DNA of 64,000 nt from Affinundibacterium nitidum (GTDB lineage: Bacteria > Pseudomonadota > Gammaproteobacteria > Burkholderiales > Burkholderiaceae_D), in the NCBI RefSeq assembly GCF_014284155.1, contig NZ_JACOFZ010000008.1, forward strand, positions 1 to 64,000, given 5' to 3'. The notes under the pieces were generated by a model. It searched no databases, was not told the origin of the DNA, and worked only from the letters and a program-made list of their open reading frames with translations. Each line of letters starts with the position of its first letter. The first letter of the stretch is position 1. The translations under genes were made by a program, and so were the position numbers. Of this stretch, positions 1,995 to 22,048 are shown piece by piece.

Positions 1995-2711
1995 TCACAC
2001 CTGTAGCCAAACACCTTTGAACAAGATAGGGCCGCTTGGTTTTTCAGGGTTACCTGAACCACCTTTCGGTTCCAAAGAAATTGCCAAGATATTAGTCGCC
2101 TCAGGCACCAAGAAATCTGGCAAGGCCAACTCGACCTCGCCATTGGCGGCGATCAAACCGAGCGAGCGAATCTTGCCGTCTTTGGCAATCGACCACAATT
2201 CCAAACTTTGATTCGCAGCGATCGCTTGGGCCTGCACCATACGCACAGTCATCTTACCTTTAGCACGATTACCCGAGATCAACACTTGTGTTTGCGCTTT
2301 TTCATCTGCAAGTGTTGCCACATAAGTTGGGCCAGTCGGCAAGCTCAATTCAGCACGTTGACTCAATAGCACGGAGACTAAGACTAAAGCAGCCGTGGTC
2401 GAAACCAGCCCAAGGCCACGCCAGAAACTCAAGTCCTGACGCAACTGACGCCAATATTCCCAACGATCATTCTTCTTAAGTAGACCTAATCGACGCTCTA
2501 CTGCCAACCATACTTCGGCAGACACTGGTTGCGAAGAGGCGAATTCCGCCATCGGTAACAAGTGCGCTTGCCATTCTCGGACTGCTTGCAAGACCTTAGG
2601 ATCTTGCTGCAATAGCGCATCAAAGCGGCGACGTGCGCCACCACGCAAAGTACCTAACACGTATTCAGCCGCCAATTTTTGTAGGAGTTGAGGATGTGCA
2701 GAGATTTTCAT
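1995..2711 (-). CDS. RskA-type anti-sigma factor
   Basis: A 238-residue protein whose ATG overlaps the stop of the preceding sigma gene (ATGA, 4 bases), which fixes the start and implies translational coupling. Residues 1-80 resemble the cytoplasmic sigma-binding anti-sigma domain (LAAEYVLGTLRGGARRRFDA, as in RskA/ChrR-like proteins). A single transmembrane segment follows near residues 100-118 (GLVSTTAALVLVSVLL). The C-terminal periplasmic part has the RskA features SLELWSIAKDGKIRSLGLI and ILAISLEPKGGSG. It should hold the ECF sigma factor at the membrane until a periplasmic signal leads to its release, by family analogy through proteolysis. The signal is unknown. Confidence 0.88.
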   Translation of the reverse strand: MKISAHPQLLQKLAAEYVLGTLRGGARRRFDALLQQDPKVLQAVREWQAHLLPMAEFASSQPVSAEVWLAVERRLGLLKKNDRWEYWRQLRQDLSFWRGLGLVSTTAALVLVSVLLSQRAELSLPTGPTYVATLADEKAQTQVLISGNRAKGKMTVRMVQAQAIAANQSLELWSIAKDGKIRSLGLIAANGEVELALPDFLVPEATNILAISLEPKGGSGNPEKPSGPILFKGVWLQV

Positions 2712-3295
2712 AGTGCGGGCACCTTCACCAAGCAATTACGTAATTTATCAAGTCCACGGCGTATCCATGTTTTCACTGTGCCGACCGGCATCGTCATATG
2801 TGCTGCTACTTCGCTATGCGATAGATCATGATAAAAAGCCAGCGCCATCGCTTGTCTCTGCATGGCTTCTAAGCGCGACATACATGCTGCCAACGCGACA
2901 GCATCTTGACTGAGCTCCATTTGCTGCAAGGGACTTAAGTCGCCACTCTCCATCGCTAATACGATTTGTGGATCAAACTCATCGGCGTCGATTTCCACAT
3001 CATGGTCCAATTTACGCAGTAAATCGACGGCACGATTACGGACTATCGTCATCATCCAAGTCATCGGTGCGGCTAAGCTACTTTGATAGCTCGCGGCATT
3101 ATTCCAAATATTGACGAAACTTTCTTGCAGTATTTCCTCAGCCAGCTCTCGCTTATTCAAGATGCGTAAAGCAAAGCCAAACAGCTTAGGAGAAGACGCT
3201 TGGTACAGCGCCTTAAAAGCGGCTGCATCTTTAGCGGCAACACCATTAAGCCATATATGTAGCTGTCCATTATCAATTCTGCTGGTGGTTTCCAA
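2708..3295 (-). CDS. ECF RNA polymerase sigma factor (SigK/RpoE-like)
   Basis: 195 residues with region sigma-2 (about 25-95; ELAEEILQESFVNIWNNA is the core-binding and -10 recognition stretch) and region sigma-4 (about 130-190; helix-turn-helix SHSEVAAHMTMPVGTVKTW). The start is TTG at 3295, with AAAGGAG just upstream. It overlaps the RskA-type anti-sigma gene by 4 bases, the normal arrangement for a membrane-tethered pair that autoregulates. Targets cannot be read from the gene. The ECF-like promoters near 19.6 and 20.8 kb are possible targets of this or another ECF factor; no copy of that motif was seen in front of this operon. Confidence 0.92.
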   Translation of the reverse strand: METTSRIDNGQLHIWLNGVAAKDAAAFKALYQASSPKLFGFALRILNKRELAEEILQESFVNIWNNAASYQSSLAAPMTWMMTIVRNRAVDLLRKLDHDVEIDADEFDPQIVLAMESGDLSPLQQMELSQDAVALAACMSRLEAMQRQAMALAFYHDLSHSEVAAHMTMPVGTVKTWIRRGLDKLRNCLVKVPAL

Positions 3296-18463: not shown

Positions 18464-18724
18464 ATGAGTCAATTTCAATGCCCATGTTGCGACTATTTTT
18501 CTCTAAAGTGCCGTGCAGAGATCGATATCTGCAAGATATGTTTTTGGGAGGATGACGGCAATGATTTGACGAGTCTCGATGTCCACTCGGGACCAAATCA
18601 TATGACTTTGCGAGAAGCGAGAGAGAATTTTAAAGAATTTGGCGCATGCGATCTGGACATGAAGAGAAACGCTTTAAGTTTCGAGCAACGACAAAAGTAT
18701 CAATTTAAGGTGCGAGAGACTTAA
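18464..18724 (+). CDS. Small Cys-rich CPCC-type protein
   Basis: 86 residues with the N-terminal zinc-ribbon-like pattern CPCC...C..CFWEDDG (Cys6, 8, 9 and a second C-x2-C near residues 23-26), then GPNHMTLREARENFKEFGA, the signature of the Cys-rich CPCC family (PF14206). It is cytoplasmic, without signal peptide. Members are scattered singly in bacteria and are often found beside immunity-type genes; the function is unknown. It lies 82 bases after metH with no terminator seen, and may be read from the metH transcript. Confidence 0.8.
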   Translation: MSQFQCPCCDYFSLKCRAEIDICKICFWEDDGNDLTSLDVHSGPNHMTLREARENFKEFGACDLDMKRNALSFEQRQKYQFKVRET

Positions 18725-18931
18725 GGATCAGATCAAAACTTGCCACGCGAGAATTATAATTGGCTTTCACGATCATCGAAAGTTCACATATGAGAAAAGA
18801 TTCCCCTCAAAATGGAAAGTTCAAATTCCCTTGGTGAAAAGTTCGAGAGTGGGTTTAAGAGGGTTGCGATGTCACAAGAGATATCGGCAGTGGTGTATCC
18901 CATTTCCAATTGGAGAGACCAGGGAGAGTGT

Positions 18932-19543
18932 ATGCACAAGCAAGGCCTATCGTATTACGTACTCTGCTTTCTCGCTTTAGGAATCACCGGCTACTCAATA
19001 TTTGTCTATGGCTTCATGCCACTCGGTAGCGTCGTTCATCCTGACATGCGTGCGAATTTTCAAGCACATTCGAGTATCGTCTATGTGCATATATTTGCTT
19101 CCAGTGTCGCTTTACTGTGTGGTGCTTTACAGTTTTCAATTCAACTGAGAACGCTACATCCCCAAGTTCATCGATGGCTGGGTAGAATCTATCTTATGGT
19201 TGGAGTTCTGTCTGGTGGCCTTGCAGGTCGAGCCATGGCACAAACCGCTTACGGAGGCATGGTCTCTCGTTTGGGATTTAGTGGCCTCGCCCTTTTGTGG
19301 CTGTTTTCGGGTCTGCGCGCTTATCTAGCGATCTGTCGTGGTCATGTGAAAGAACATCAACAATGGATGCAACGCAACTACGCGTTGACATGCGCCGCCA
19401 TTACTTTGCGCATTTACCTGCCTGTGAGTATGGTGGGCGGTATTGCCTTCGACATCGCCTACCCTCTCATTGCTTGGCTGTGTTGGGTGCCCAATCTCAT
19501 CTTCGTTGAGTGGATCATTCGCCGTCAGCGAAACCTGATCTGA
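18932..19543 (+). CDS. DUF2306 family membrane protein
   Basis: 203 residues from the ATG at 18932, supported by AGGGAG seven bases upstream; an in-frame start at 18812 would add a polar stretch unlike the family. About six hydrophobic helices; conserved features are VHPDMRANFQAHSSIVYVHI near the first loop, LHRWLGRIY-like VHRWLGRIYLMVG, and EHQQWMQRNYALTCAA with His/Arg residues at the membrane face. These fit DUF2306, an uncharacterised family resembling cytochrome b561-like helices. No haem or cofactor claim can be made. Single gene. Confidence 0.8.
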   Translation: MHKQGLSYYVLCFLALGITGYSIFVYGFMPLGSVVHPDMRANFQAHSSIVYVHIFASSVALLCGALQFSIQLRTLHPQVHRWLGRIYLMVGVLSGGLAGRAMAQTAYGGMVSRLGFSGLALLWLFSGLRAYLAICRGHVKEHQQWMQRNYALTCAAITLRIYLPVSMVGGIAFDIAYPLIAWLCWVPNLIFVEWIIRRQRNLI

Positions 19544-19599
19544 CCACCACCTTTGAAGTAAGTGGAATATTTCATCGAAAAATAAGTTTTAAAAAATTT

Positions 19600-19627
19600 T
19601 GTAAGTTATCGCGTTCTCAAACGACTA
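19600..19627 (+). promoter_or_regulatory. ECF-sigma-like promoter of the Cys-Lys repeat gene
   Basis: TGTAAG (19600-19605), 16 bases, CGACTA (19622-19627). The same two hexamers with the same spacing occur upstream of the YHS gene (20803-20830), and the preceding bases AATTT are also shared. The pattern (GTAA-type -35, CGAC-type -10) resembles ECF sigma factor promoters. The start codon is 90 bases downstream. Confidence 0.65.
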
Positions 19628-19717
19628 AGTCCATGTAGCTGTCTCAATGGCAGTCATCTTGATGATGGCAAACCCCCTCTGCCCCGCTACAGGCTCACTT
19701 CCTCTTTGGAGAAATCG

Positions 19718-20005
19718 ATGAAAGCTAAATCTTTAAGTACAACCTTGAAAAGCGTAATGACTGCGTCTGTGATGGCTGCAAGTGCGATGGCGGCGATGCC
19801 TGCTCTTGCACAGTGTGCTGCTAAGCCAGCTACTGCAGCAAAAGCCTGTGCCGCAAAAAAAGGGTGTTGCGCAGCGAAGAAAGGCTGTTGTGCTGCTAAG
19901 AAGGGCTGCTGCGCAGCTAAGAAAGCTTGCTGTGCTGCGAAGAAAGCACATGCTAAGAAAGGATGCTGTGCTGCAAAGAAAGGCTGCTGCGCGGCGAAGA
20001 AATAA
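19718..20005 (+). CDS. Exported Cys/Lys-rich heptad-repeat protein
   Basis: 95 residues from the ATG at 19718 (GGAG eight bases upstream; an in-frame TTG at 19706 is rejected). Residues 1-31 are a clear signal peptide ending MPALAQ. The mature part is almost entirely repeats of A-A-K-K-G-C-C: six Cys-Cys pairs at about 50, 57, 64, 71, 83 and 90, with one spacer (AHAK) and two single Cys (33, 44). It should be a periplasmic thiol- and amine-rich peptide that could bind soft metals such as Cu(I) or trap electrophiles. It recalls bufferin-type metallophore precursors, but the DUF692/DUF2063 maturation genes are not in this window. An ECF-like promoter precedes it. Confidence 0.8.
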   Translation: MKAKSLSTTLKSVMTASVMAASAMAAMPALAQCAAKPATAAKACAAKKGCCAAKKGCCAAKKGCCAAKKACCAAKKAHAKKGCCAAKKGCCAAKK

Positions 20006-20021
20006 ATTTGTAGATTCAATC

Positions 20022-20049
20022 GATTGCTTCCTCGTGTGAGGAAGCAATC
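20022..20049 (+). terminator. Perfect 12-bp hairpin after the repeat gene
   Basis: GATTGCTTCCTC - GTGT - GAGGAAGCAATC, a perfect stem with a 4-base loop, 16 bases after the stop codon. No full T-run follows (TTACC), so it may act as a weak terminator or protect the short mRNA from 3' decay. Confidence 0.7.
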
Positions 20050-20091
20050 TTACCGTTGTAATCGTACTTTCTTATTGAGTGCCAAGCGAAT

Positions 20092-20793
20092 ATGCGCCTC
20101 CCTGTCCTCGTCAAACCACAATCTTTAGTCACGCAATCAACCACGCCAACAGAAAAAGCGCGCTTGTGGAAAGCGGCGAATGAGCTTGTGTCTCATCTGC
20201 ATCAACTGTCGGAAAAAGGTTCACAAGTAGTTCAGCAAGTGCTGGGAAAACATGCCTTTGTAGAATGGGATCACTATCCCGAAGATGATGTGCGTGACCA
20301 CCAACATCACTCTCAGTACTTCTATCATGCGCATCCTGGCCAACAACGTCCGTTCGTTGAACACGGCCATTTCCATTTGTTCGTGCACGCGCAAGAGCTA
20401 GGCCTTCGACCTGTGCGCGAGCTTTACAGTGAAGCACCCGCCCATTTAATCGCGGTGTCGATGGATGCCACTGGGATGCCAATCGGCTTTTTTGTTGTCA
20501 ACCGCTGGGTAACAAAGGGGCCATGGCTATCAAGTCAGCAGTGCGAAATTGCGTTAGATCATTTCGCCATTAAGGGCAAACAGGGGAACCGACAGGTTAA
20601 TACTATTTTGAGTTCGCTGGTACGACTATATCGACAGGCGATCCTCGATTTAATTGAGGAACGTGATAGAACAATGGTAAAAATAAGCAAAGGCCGTGAT
20701 CGGAGATCTGTTTTTGCGGATCAAACTATTGAAGTTATTTGCTATCGCCCTATTTCGCTCGCCGACGATATTCAATTATTAGAAGAAAACTAG
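20092..20793 (+). CDS. Conserved His-rich protein (DUF6969-like)
   Basis: 233 residues, no signal peptide or membrane helix. The central part (about 58-100) is dense in histidine: EWDHYPEDDVRDHQHHSQ, YFYHAHPGQ and EHGHFHLFVHA give ten His in some 40 residues, a probable metal site. The rest is mixed alpha/beta with a basic C-terminal helix (LVRLYRQAILDLIEERDR). It resembles proteins annotated DUF6969, from memory and tentative. It lies 87 bases after the Cys-Lys repeat gene, across a hairpin, and 69 bases before the YHS gene, whose ECF-like promoter begins just past its stop codon. A cytoplasmic partner in metal handling is an inference from context only. Confidence 0.72.
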   Translation: MRLPVLVKPQSLVTQSTTPTEKARLWKAANELVSHLHQLSEKGSQVVQQVLGKHAFVEWDHYPEDDVRDHQHHSQYFYHAHPGQQRPFVEHGHFHLFVHAQELGLRPVRELYSEAPAHLIAVSMDATGMPIGFFVVNRWVTKGPWLSSQQCEIALDHFAIKGKQGNRQVNTILSSLVRLYRQAILDLIEERDRTMVKISKGRDRRSVFADQTIEVICYRPISLADDIQLLEEN

Positions 20794-20802
20794 AAGAAAT
20801 TT

Positions 20803-20830
20803 TGTAAGCATCGCCCAATGAAACCGACTA
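20803..20830 (+). promoter_or_regulatory. ECF-sigma-like promoter of the YHS gene
   Basis: TGTAAG (20803-20808), 16 bases, CGACTA (20825-20830), identical in hexamers and spacing to the site at 19600-19627. The YHS start codon follows 31 bases later. Confidence 0.65.
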
Positions 20831-20861
20831 CTTGTAGTCTTTCATTCACTTGGAGTTTCGT

Positions 20862-21326
20862 ATGCGTATTTTTACTTTTTTCAAAACTAGTTTACTCACT
20901 TCGTTCATTCTTCTTAGCAGCCATGCCCTAGCCATTGATCCCATTTTTTCAACTAAGGCCGGTGCCATTCGCGGCTATGATCCGGTTGCTTACTTCACGG
21001 TCCATAAAGCGGTCAAAGGACAGAAAAATTTGAGTACTGAATGGCAAGGAGCGACATGGCATTTTAGTAGCCAAGCCAACCTCGATGCTTTCAAAGCCGA
21101 ACCTGAGAAGTATGCTCCTCAATATGGTGGCTACTGCGCCTATGGCGTCTCTCAAGGATACACACCAGAAATTGATCCACATGCTTTCCACGTTCAAGAT
21201 GGAAAGCTGTATCTCAACTTGAGTAAGGGTGTTCTGAAACGCTGGCGCGAAGATATTCCAACCTATGTACATGATGCCGACAAGAACTGGCCTGCTCTAA
21301 AAGCAGGTACCTATGTCGAGCAATAA
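20862..21326 (+). CDS. Exported YHS-domain protein
   Basis: 154 residues from the ATG at 20862 (GGAG eight bases upstream; an in-frame TTG at 20850 is rejected). Signal peptide about 1-24 (SSHALA), then IRGYDPVAYFTVHKAVKGQ, the typical start of exported YHS proteins, followed by TWHFSSQANLDAFKAEPEKY and YGGYCAYGVSQGY with a single Cys92. YHS domains are associated with copper and other metal transport or resistance proteins. It shares its promoter motif with the Cys-Lys repeat gene upstream, which suggests one regulon. Family assignment is good; the metal role is an inference. Confidence 0.85.
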   Translation: MRIFTFFKTSLLTSFILLSSHALAIDPIFSTKAGAIRGYDPVAYFTVHKAVKGQKNLSTEWQGATWHFSSQANLDAFKAEPEKYAPQYGGYCAYGVSQGYTPEIDPHAFHVQDGKLYLNLSKGVLKRWREDIPTYVHDADKNWPALKAGTYVEQ

Positions 21327-21589
21327 GTTGCGCCAATTTTGAAAGTATCGAAAACGATATCGAGAGAGTCTGCATTCACTAAAAAAGCGATCTTTCTCTC
21401 TCGATCCATTTTGATTTTTTTAAACATCAAGAGCAAGATTCTTCAACTCAGCGCAACACCGCCGCAAATCCATACCCATTTCCCGCAATTGATCGCAAAA
21501 TCAATGCAAAATCTGAAATTGCATTTACACTGATAGCTCAAATTATCACGGCAGAAGGTGTTTATCCGAAAAGTCAAAATGAGACCATC

Positions 21590-22048
21590 ATGCAATTAAT
21601 TTTTACAAAGAAAAATGGCAAATACGATCACCTATCGATCGTCAAAGGCGGTCAAGAAGTGGGAAATATCGATTGCCCAAAACAAGGCATCATTCCTCAC
21701 GACATGGTGCACTATGGGGTAGAGAATACCTTACGCAAGCGTGGTTTCATCAGCCGCATTCACGCCGGCAAGAAAGCGACACTGCAGATGCAAGCAGAAG
21801 CGGAGAGTGACGGAGTCGAAAGGCTAGTCGAGGTATTTCAAGCTGATGGATGGTCTGGATGGCAAACGCCTGCGGAAGACATGCTTGAACTTTACCAGGT
21901 CACTTGCGATGCCCGCCATTGTCCTGCTTTACAAGTCAAGCCTGAAGATGTGGAGTCGGTACGTTGTGAGTTACTACGCCTGAGCTCACTTTGGAGTGCA
22001 GTGGCTATTGGCGACAGCCTTACTCTAGGTTTTGACCTTCAAGCATAA
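21590..22048 (+). CDS. Conserved hypothetical protein
   Basis: 152 residues, soluble, no signal peptide. The N-terminal motif FTKKNGKYDHLSIVKGG and IDCPKQGIIPHDMVHYGVE recur in uncharacterised proteobacterial proteins that I recall only as hypothetical. The conserved H-D-x-V-H might be a metal or catalytic site. The protein has three Cys in the second half. Ribosome site is weak (GAGACC). It may be cotranscribed with the GFA gene 41 bases downstream. Function unknown. Confidence 0.72.
   Translation: MQLIFTKKNGKYDHLSIVKGGQEVGNIDCPKQGIIPHDMVHYGVENTLRKRGFISRIHAGKKATLQMQAEAESDGVERLVEVFQADGWSGWQTPAEDMLELYQVTCDARHCPALQVKPEDVESVRCELLRLSSLWSAVAIGDSLTLGFDLQA

Follow-up and report, generated by a model that had tools for sequence, protein, structure and literature searches.

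The closest described systems are regulons of ECF sigma factors, and what is said of them here follows excerpts of the papers cited. The sigmaE-MseR system of Neisseria meningitidis uses promoters of the form GTMAGBWTT, 12-13 nt, CGTCTAAH, which corresponds to GTAAG-N16/17-CGTCTA (PMC2893595). It has a ZAS anti-sigma factor, among its targets are msrA/msrB and the sigmaE operon (PMC2893595, PMC3240639), and three hypothetical genes and a DoxX gene are counted to the neisserial regulon (PMC7907618). In the RpoE2-HrsE system of Haemophilus influenzae, a hypochlorite-linked ECF factor with a 67-aa anti-sigma factor, RpoE2 governs msrAB together with clustered DoxX, DUF2063 and COG3220 genes, and autoregulation is very limited (PMC7907618). 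The ECF16 system SigF-NrsF of Caulobacter controls buf operons and a yedY gene (PMC3511200), and BcrS-AbcS of Brucella, also ECF16, controls MsrP/MsrQ-like genes (PMC8315932); the promoters are given as GTAACC-N16-CGAA and TGTAAC/CGAA (PMC3511200, PMC8315932). As to the peptides, bufferins and the Buf_EGKCG/oxazolin group are signal-bearing, Cys-rich precursors, some of them with repeats, encoded beside partner proteins; in sizeable proportions, precursor genes are found apart from enzyme genes (PMC12452194).

The DNA analysed here, called the window, is a stretch of 64 kb, in which a preliminary description had noticed TGTAAG-N16-CGACTA twice. Both sites match exactly on the plus strand. In P1 (19600-19627) the -35 hexamer TGTAAG occupies 19600-19605 and the -10 hexamer CGACTA 19622-19627, in P2 (20803-20830) the same hexamers occupy 20803-20808 and 20825-20830, and 16 nt separate them in each case. 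A longer sequence claimed to be common to the two sites, AATTTTGTAAG, is likewise present in each. P1 ends 90 bp before the ATG (19718) of a gene for a Cys-Lys repeat protein, and P2 31 bp before the ATG (20862) of a gene for a YHS-domain protein. A perfect palindrome, GACTACTTGTAGTC, at 20826-20839 overlaps the -10 hexamer of P2; a similar but imperfect arrangement follows the -10 hexamer of bufA in the same genome. We consider it probable (about 85 %) that a TIGR02943-type ECF factor, encoded on another contig (C76) and held by a ZAS anti-sigma factor, reads P1 and P2 as its promoters, and that the two belong to a regulon of buf, msr, Cys-Lys and YHS genes in which a Cys-repeat protein and a DUF6969 protein would take part in buffering.

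The Cys-Lys repeat protein (19718-20005, plus strand) has 95 aa with KKGCCAA repeats and 14 Cys. Its N-terminus is signal-like, as is that of the YHS protein, both calls being made by eye. It has no match in Pfam or NCBIfam, and no Pfam match was obtained with the scanned Cys-Lys proteins, relatives included. DUF2306 and DUF6969 genes are its neighbours, one on each side. The DUF6969 protein (20092-20793, plus strand; 233 aa) matches Pfam PF22308 with E 5.3e-59. The YHS protein (20862-21326, plus strand; 154 aa) contains PF04945 and matches the NCBIfam model NF041384, YHS (seleno)protein, with 164.6 bits against a cut-off of 70; the Cys of its GG(Y/F)CA motif is conserved in an alignment of four sequences. 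In sequence searches of the PDB, DUF6969 had no relative even at E values up to 1, and the YHS protein had four matches, all with E > 0.3. Just 3' of the Cys-Lys gene there is a perfect 12-bp hairpin (20022-20049, plus strand), a possible terminator with no T run, which is absent from the output of the terminator scan; because of its position, P1 may serve mainly the Cys-Lys gene. The 5' UTR of the same gene holds a 14-nt block, GCCCCGCTACAGGC (19681-19694, plus strand), similar in five genomes; its consensus GCCyynCwACrGGC is common to all five with a Cys-Lys gene (the window, L225, L226, L082 and L124). A leader peptide was considered for this block and rejected, since the frame in which it stands to the main gene, judged by eye, varies among genomes.

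The order P1, Cys-Lys gene, DUF6969, P2, YHS was found again in L225 and L226 and in G001, a genome of another genus. Relatives of the Cys-Lys protein are present in these three and in G044, where the Cys-Lys gene is separate from DUF6969 and YHS. The closest YHS relatives on named contigs, among the best 80 of 568, are those of two MAGs labelled Undibacterium (L225, L226). The seven other species sampled from the same genus as the window matched neither the YHS nor the Cys-Lys query, which makes the distribution of the cluster patchy. When the loci of these best 80 of 568 YHS relatives were screened with the set of query genes, eight had any match, namely DUF6969 in L225 and L226, msrP in L240 and L289, and msrA or msrB in four, and none of the 80 matched the buf, doxX or sigma queries. 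In L240 and L289, which are Rhodospirillales MAGs with distant YHS relatives, the YHS gene stands directly before msrP. In G118, a YHS relative (44 %) is flanked by a 46 % sigma relative on one side and bufB-bufC-doxX on the other.

The pairing of a Cys-repeat gene with DUF6969 is found beyond the YHS cluster as well. When 399 genomes of the order were searched with a profile built from five Cys-Lys proteins, one relative came from another family (G459). There the genes run bufA-bufB-bufC-doxX-Cys-repeat-DUF6969, and an ECF gene (41 % identical) and a ZAS gene follow at a distance of a few kb. At L309, bufABC-doxX, Cys-repeat, DUF6969 and sigma-ZAS genes are found within one locus, the Cys-repeat gene following bufB-bufC-doxX. 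L307 and L308, which matched the Cys-Lys alignment, were discarded because no Cys-Lys protein is present there. DUF6969 occurs in 25 of the 399 genomes at 27 places, one of which is a fragment and was left out; the other 26 loci carry 11 family labels. A gene for a Cys-repeat protein, signal-bearing as judged by eye, lies at most 1.3 kb upstream of DUF6969 at 25 of these 26. An automatic rule found a Cys-repeat reading frame within that distance at 22 of the 26, with 21 of the frames ending at most 330 bp from the DUF6969 match, and three more were recognised by eye: L335, L320, and L310/L337, where a further gene intervenes. The remaining locus is L311. Applied to control loci, the same rule, which was composed after the positives had been seen, gave 0/29 for msrP, 0/30 for sigma and 0/71 for distant YHS loci, 0/130 in total.

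The motif, with at most one mismatch, precedes the pair at some of the loci only: it is exact in the window and at L313, and is found at L316 and L331-L333. In three genomes of f42, the motif (one mismatch), Cys-repeat, DUF6969 and ECF sigma genes are consecutive, at L343 an ECF gene stands just before the pair, and at L340 buf genes lie within 8 kb of it. At L338 (G274) the motif (one mismatch), thioredoxin-like, CcdA-like and DUF6969 genes are consecutive, with no Cys-repeat gene. Among 167 plasmid records with a DUF6969 match, three were considered. The Burkholderia glumae plasmid carries thioredoxin, CcdA, ECF, zf-HC2, MFS, Cys-repeat (WP_012732788.1) and DUF6969 (WP_012732787.1) genes, with TGTAAA-N16-CGACTA before the Cys-repeat gene and an ECF factor 44 % identical to that of our genome. 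In Sinorhizobium meliloti pSymB a frame with PCAAG-type repeats stands just before DUF6969. The Skermanella record (L359) has no Cys-repeat frame before DUF6969, and a nearby sigma gene there has a neighbour annotated as NrsF. At the plasmid locus L357 (NZ_CP100267.1), ECF, zf-HC2, Cys-repeat and DUF6969 genes are accompanied by genes for methylthioadenosine phosphorylase and an arsenosugar-type glycosyltransferase. No description of the Cys-repeat/DUF6969 pair was found in the literature searched, where the term DUF6969 does not occur, and the pairing is apparently both widespread and undescribed.

We propose that the pair consists of a metal- or oxidant-buffering protein and a metal-dependent partner or maturase. 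One reading, to which we give a little less than an even chance, is that the Cys-repeat protein buffers simply through its unmodified thiols and that DUF6969 serves as a metal-trafficking or other partner, not as a maturase. The repeats vary widely between families (KKGCCAA, NPCAAK, KCAPK, NPCGP, and also KCGAK among the loci), which fits a loose function driven by composition, and at L311/L338 DUF6969 follows, by eye, thioredoxin- and CcdA-looking genes instead of a Cys-repeat gene. Against this, the gene arrangement is tight across 11 family labels and five His are invariant, which together point to a specific partner containing a metal site. When 30 DUF6969 sequences were aligned, each taken from the frame of its profile match, H79, H81, H93, H95 and H118 were present in 30/30, H61, D66 and D69 in 29/30, E90 in 26/30 and H91 in 25/30. 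More tentatively, the exported Cys-repeat proteins could be a large, so far unrecognised class whose members DUF6969 either modifies, as a metal-dependent enzyme, or loads or guards, as a dedicated partner. The pair, which carries 11 family labels of the order and also occurs on Burkholderia and Sinorhizobium plasmids (one of each examined), would then form a second precursor-plus-enzyme system for metal or oxidant buffering beside the bufferins, under a similar ECF factor. At L312, L314, L315 and L337, proteins near DUF6969 have a cytochrome-c-like CxxCH stretch with NPCAAK-type Cys repeats on either side.

Beyond the window, the same genome contains further occurrences of the motif. On contig C11, an operon bufA-bufB-bufC-doxX has an exact motif before bufA (DUF2282) and another before doxX; the latter is of the N17 form and overlaps the last part of bufC. 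BufB scores above the NCBIfam cut-off for bufferin maturases, and BufA and BufC are matched by the BufA2 and HvfC models only below cut-off. One-mismatch sites precede msrA, msrB and msrP-msrQ, and the four Msr proteins exceed their NCBIfam cut-offs. At this level of motifs, the predicted targets thus include the msr genes and bufABC-doxX. Seven further sites, two exact and five with one mismatch, were examined more closely: four lie inside frames of at least 241 codons, and the remaining three are L031, L033 and L034. L033 (C43:249538-249565) reads TGTAAG-N16-CGACAA just before a signal-like start codon and may mark another regulon member. The other one-mismatch sites of the genome were inspected as sequence only.

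The genome has 13 Sigma70_r2 matches. The candidate sigma factor is an ECF protein at C76:153479-154051, which matches NF009173 with 288.7 bits (cut-off 255) and TIGR02943 with 242 (cut-off 162.2). Directly after it comes a gene for a 64-aa ZAS-type anti-sigma factor with a zf-HC2 domain (NF052368, 68.4 bits, cut-off 50), and the signature H-x3-C-x2-C follows the sigma gene in 27/27 parsed relative loci (30 given). The neisserial sigmaE we take to be of the same TIGR02943/PRK12520 kind. In order to relate the motif to this gene, 94 family bufA loci were examined, of which 88, from 77 genomes, were parsed and six were not; genomes were counted as ECF-positive when they had a sigma gene of at least 53 % identity (40 genomes, a few of them with a partial or interrupted match) or a 45-46 % relative (4 genomes). 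The bufA motif, with at most one mismatch, was present in 32/44 ECF-positive and 0/33 ECF-negative genomes (Fisher 4.7e-12, relatedness ignored), this co-occurrence having been tested for the TIGR02943-type sigma alone among the genome's ECF factors. It was exact in 26 ECF-positive genomes, and three ECF-negative genomes had a bufA site within two mismatches. The msrP promoters behaved alike, with the motif in 11/17 ECF-positive and 0/13 negative genomes (Fisher 3.2e-4, relatedness ignored; best 30 loci of 128 genomes with a match). G063 and G104, of the window's genus, are without the sigma gene; their bufA sites have two and three mismatches, and no site under four mismatches was found in their msrP regions. 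Twelve of the 44 ECF-positive genomes lack the bufA motif: three have a SigF-like promoter, two have two-mismatch sites and seven have neither. Three of the 32 motif-bearing genomes, which are three of the four genomes of that class, have only the 45-46 % sigma relative, so more than one sigma factor may read the motif. The sigma gene's own upstream region yielded no match with one mismatch or fewer in the 27 parsed loci; the best, at L053, has two.

The preliminary description had suggested as driver an ECF factor like that encoded at 2708-3295. An ECF gene is indeed located within the same window, and the genome has further ECF-like genes, so that P1 and P2 might be read by one of these. We regard this as improbable. 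Positions 1995-3295 encode a SigK-like ECF factor and an RskA-type anti-sigma factor, and the former is only 21 % identical to the TIGR02943-type factor on C76, which makes it an unlikely cognate sigma. Moreover, the presence of the motif follows the TIGR02943-type gene, and a sigma gene of that kind adjoins the same Cys-repeat/DUF6969 gene pair in other families.

That P1 and P2 are chance matches is more improbable still, even if the genome-wide counts of the motif are at control level: the exact motif with N15-17 gave six matches against three for the reversed control, and the N16 motif with at most one mismatch gave 22 against 28. The counts were therefore dropped as evidence. Four of the six exact matches stand before genes (P1, P2, bufA and doxX) and two lie inside long reading frames. 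As raw counts say little, the evidence for P1 and P2 is their position and conservation. Computed over the genomes, both sites keep their position in other species: P1 is found at the equivalent place in L225 and L226 (one mismatch each) and in G001 and G044 (two mismatches each), and P2 in L225, L226 and G001 (one mismatch each, N17 in G001). Both thus recur in three further cluster-bearing genomes with one or two mismatches, in one of them with N17. In addition, a matrix built from 31 bufA promoters of other genomes, which stand upstream of another gene than the targets of P1 and P2, ranked P1 first (23.0 bits) and P2 second (20.9 bits) in the 64-kb window, with the next site at 13.3 and a top score of 17.8 across 20 simulated Markov-1 64-kb sequences; since the 31 foreign sites were picked by likeness to the consensus, this test has some circularity as regards the hexamers, but none as regards which gene was chosen. 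A sigma-70 consensus scan of 18700-21600 found no match, nor did an Rfam scan of the window at gathering scores. The computations agree with the preliminary description in the ECF-type layout of the promoters and in the placing of the two genes in one regulon.

Least probable of all is a SigF-NrsF (ECF16) system like that of Caulobacter, where SigF governs buf operons and a yedY gene according to the excerpt available (PMC3511200); a promoter type resembling that of SigF, TGTAAC-N16/17-CGAATT within one mismatch, stands at 12 of the 88 scored family bufA loci. The SigF-NrsF reading was rejected because NrsF (PF06532) has no match in our genome, the Caulobacter control being found, and further because P1 and P2 have TGTAAG and CGACTA in place of TGTAAC and CGAA, and no scored bufA locus has both promoter types within one mismatch. 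The twelve loci are L095, L102, L104, L106, L107, L109, L112, L176, L186, L191, L193 and L194.

For the regulon under the TIGR02943-type factor, we infer transcription, inducer and chemistry as follows. The small zinc-finger (ZAS) anti-sigma factor would hold the sigma factor until oxidant or metal stress in the envelope frees it. The sigma factor would then transcribe bufA-bufB-bufC-doxX, a copper-binding peptide system, and msrA, msrB and msrP-msrQ for the repair of methionine sulfoxide. It would also transcribe the Cys-Lys gene via P1, perhaps with weak read-on into DUF6969, and the YHS gene via P2. The Cys-repeat protein might be exported as a dense thiol array that binds a copper-like metal or absorbs oxidant, the DUF6969 protein, putatively metal-dependent, might use it as a substrate or work alongside it, and the YHS protein may be a periplasmic metal or redox protein. 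Two short DNA repeats have in this way led to a map of a regulon with a candidate sigma factor, and they offer an experimental entry to the Cys-repeat/DUF6969 pair. If the pair were a peptide and its maturase, it would represent a new class of bacterial copper- or oxidant-buffering peptides, and the DUF6969 family would be given a function.

An undescribed periplasmic metal or thiol-stress system had been suggested for the two genes. The envelope theme of metal, thiol and oxidant holds; however, the regulon is not wholly undescribed, as neisserial sigmaE and Haemophilus RpoE2 share its core targets, and the earlier outline included neither the bufferin and msr genes nor the conserved pairing of Cys-repeat genes with DUF6969. 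Compared by their descriptions, which are available in excerpts, the neisserial sigmaE-MseR system is similar in its ECF factor, small ZAS anti-sigma factor, and msr and DoxX-cluster targets. Its -35 element and spacing agree with P1 and P2, whereas the third base of the -10 element is A here and T there. The sigma gene and the buf operon are on separate contigs here (C76 and C11), unlike the neisserial sigma gene, which is in one operon with DoxX-cluster targets; at L309 the sigma gene is a few kb from the buf genes. Our system adds msrP-msrQ, the Cys-repeat gene and the YHS gene, none of which is among the neisserial sigmaE targets seen in those excerpts. With Haemophilus RpoE2, as far as its description was available, the core targets are the same, and the word YHS, which names a member of our regulon, is absent from that text (PMC7907618), whose excerpts give no promoter sequence. 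The ECF16 systems of Caulobacter and Brucella are, in the excerpts, like our regulon in their buf or msrP-type targets but unlike it in their promoters. The nearest peptide analogues of the Cys-repeat proteins are, on the excerpted account, the bufferin and oxazolin precursors. The Cys-Lys protein is not a DUF2282 protein, having no Pfam or NCBIfam match, and the one DUF2282 match of the genome is elsewhere; from Buf_EGKCG/oxazolin precursors it differs in its repeats, KKGCCAA and not EGKCG, and in its neighbour, DUF6969 and not an MNIO enzyme. The regulation thus looks to be of a known sort, and the novelty looks to lie in the cargo, the Cys-repeat/DUF6969 pair.
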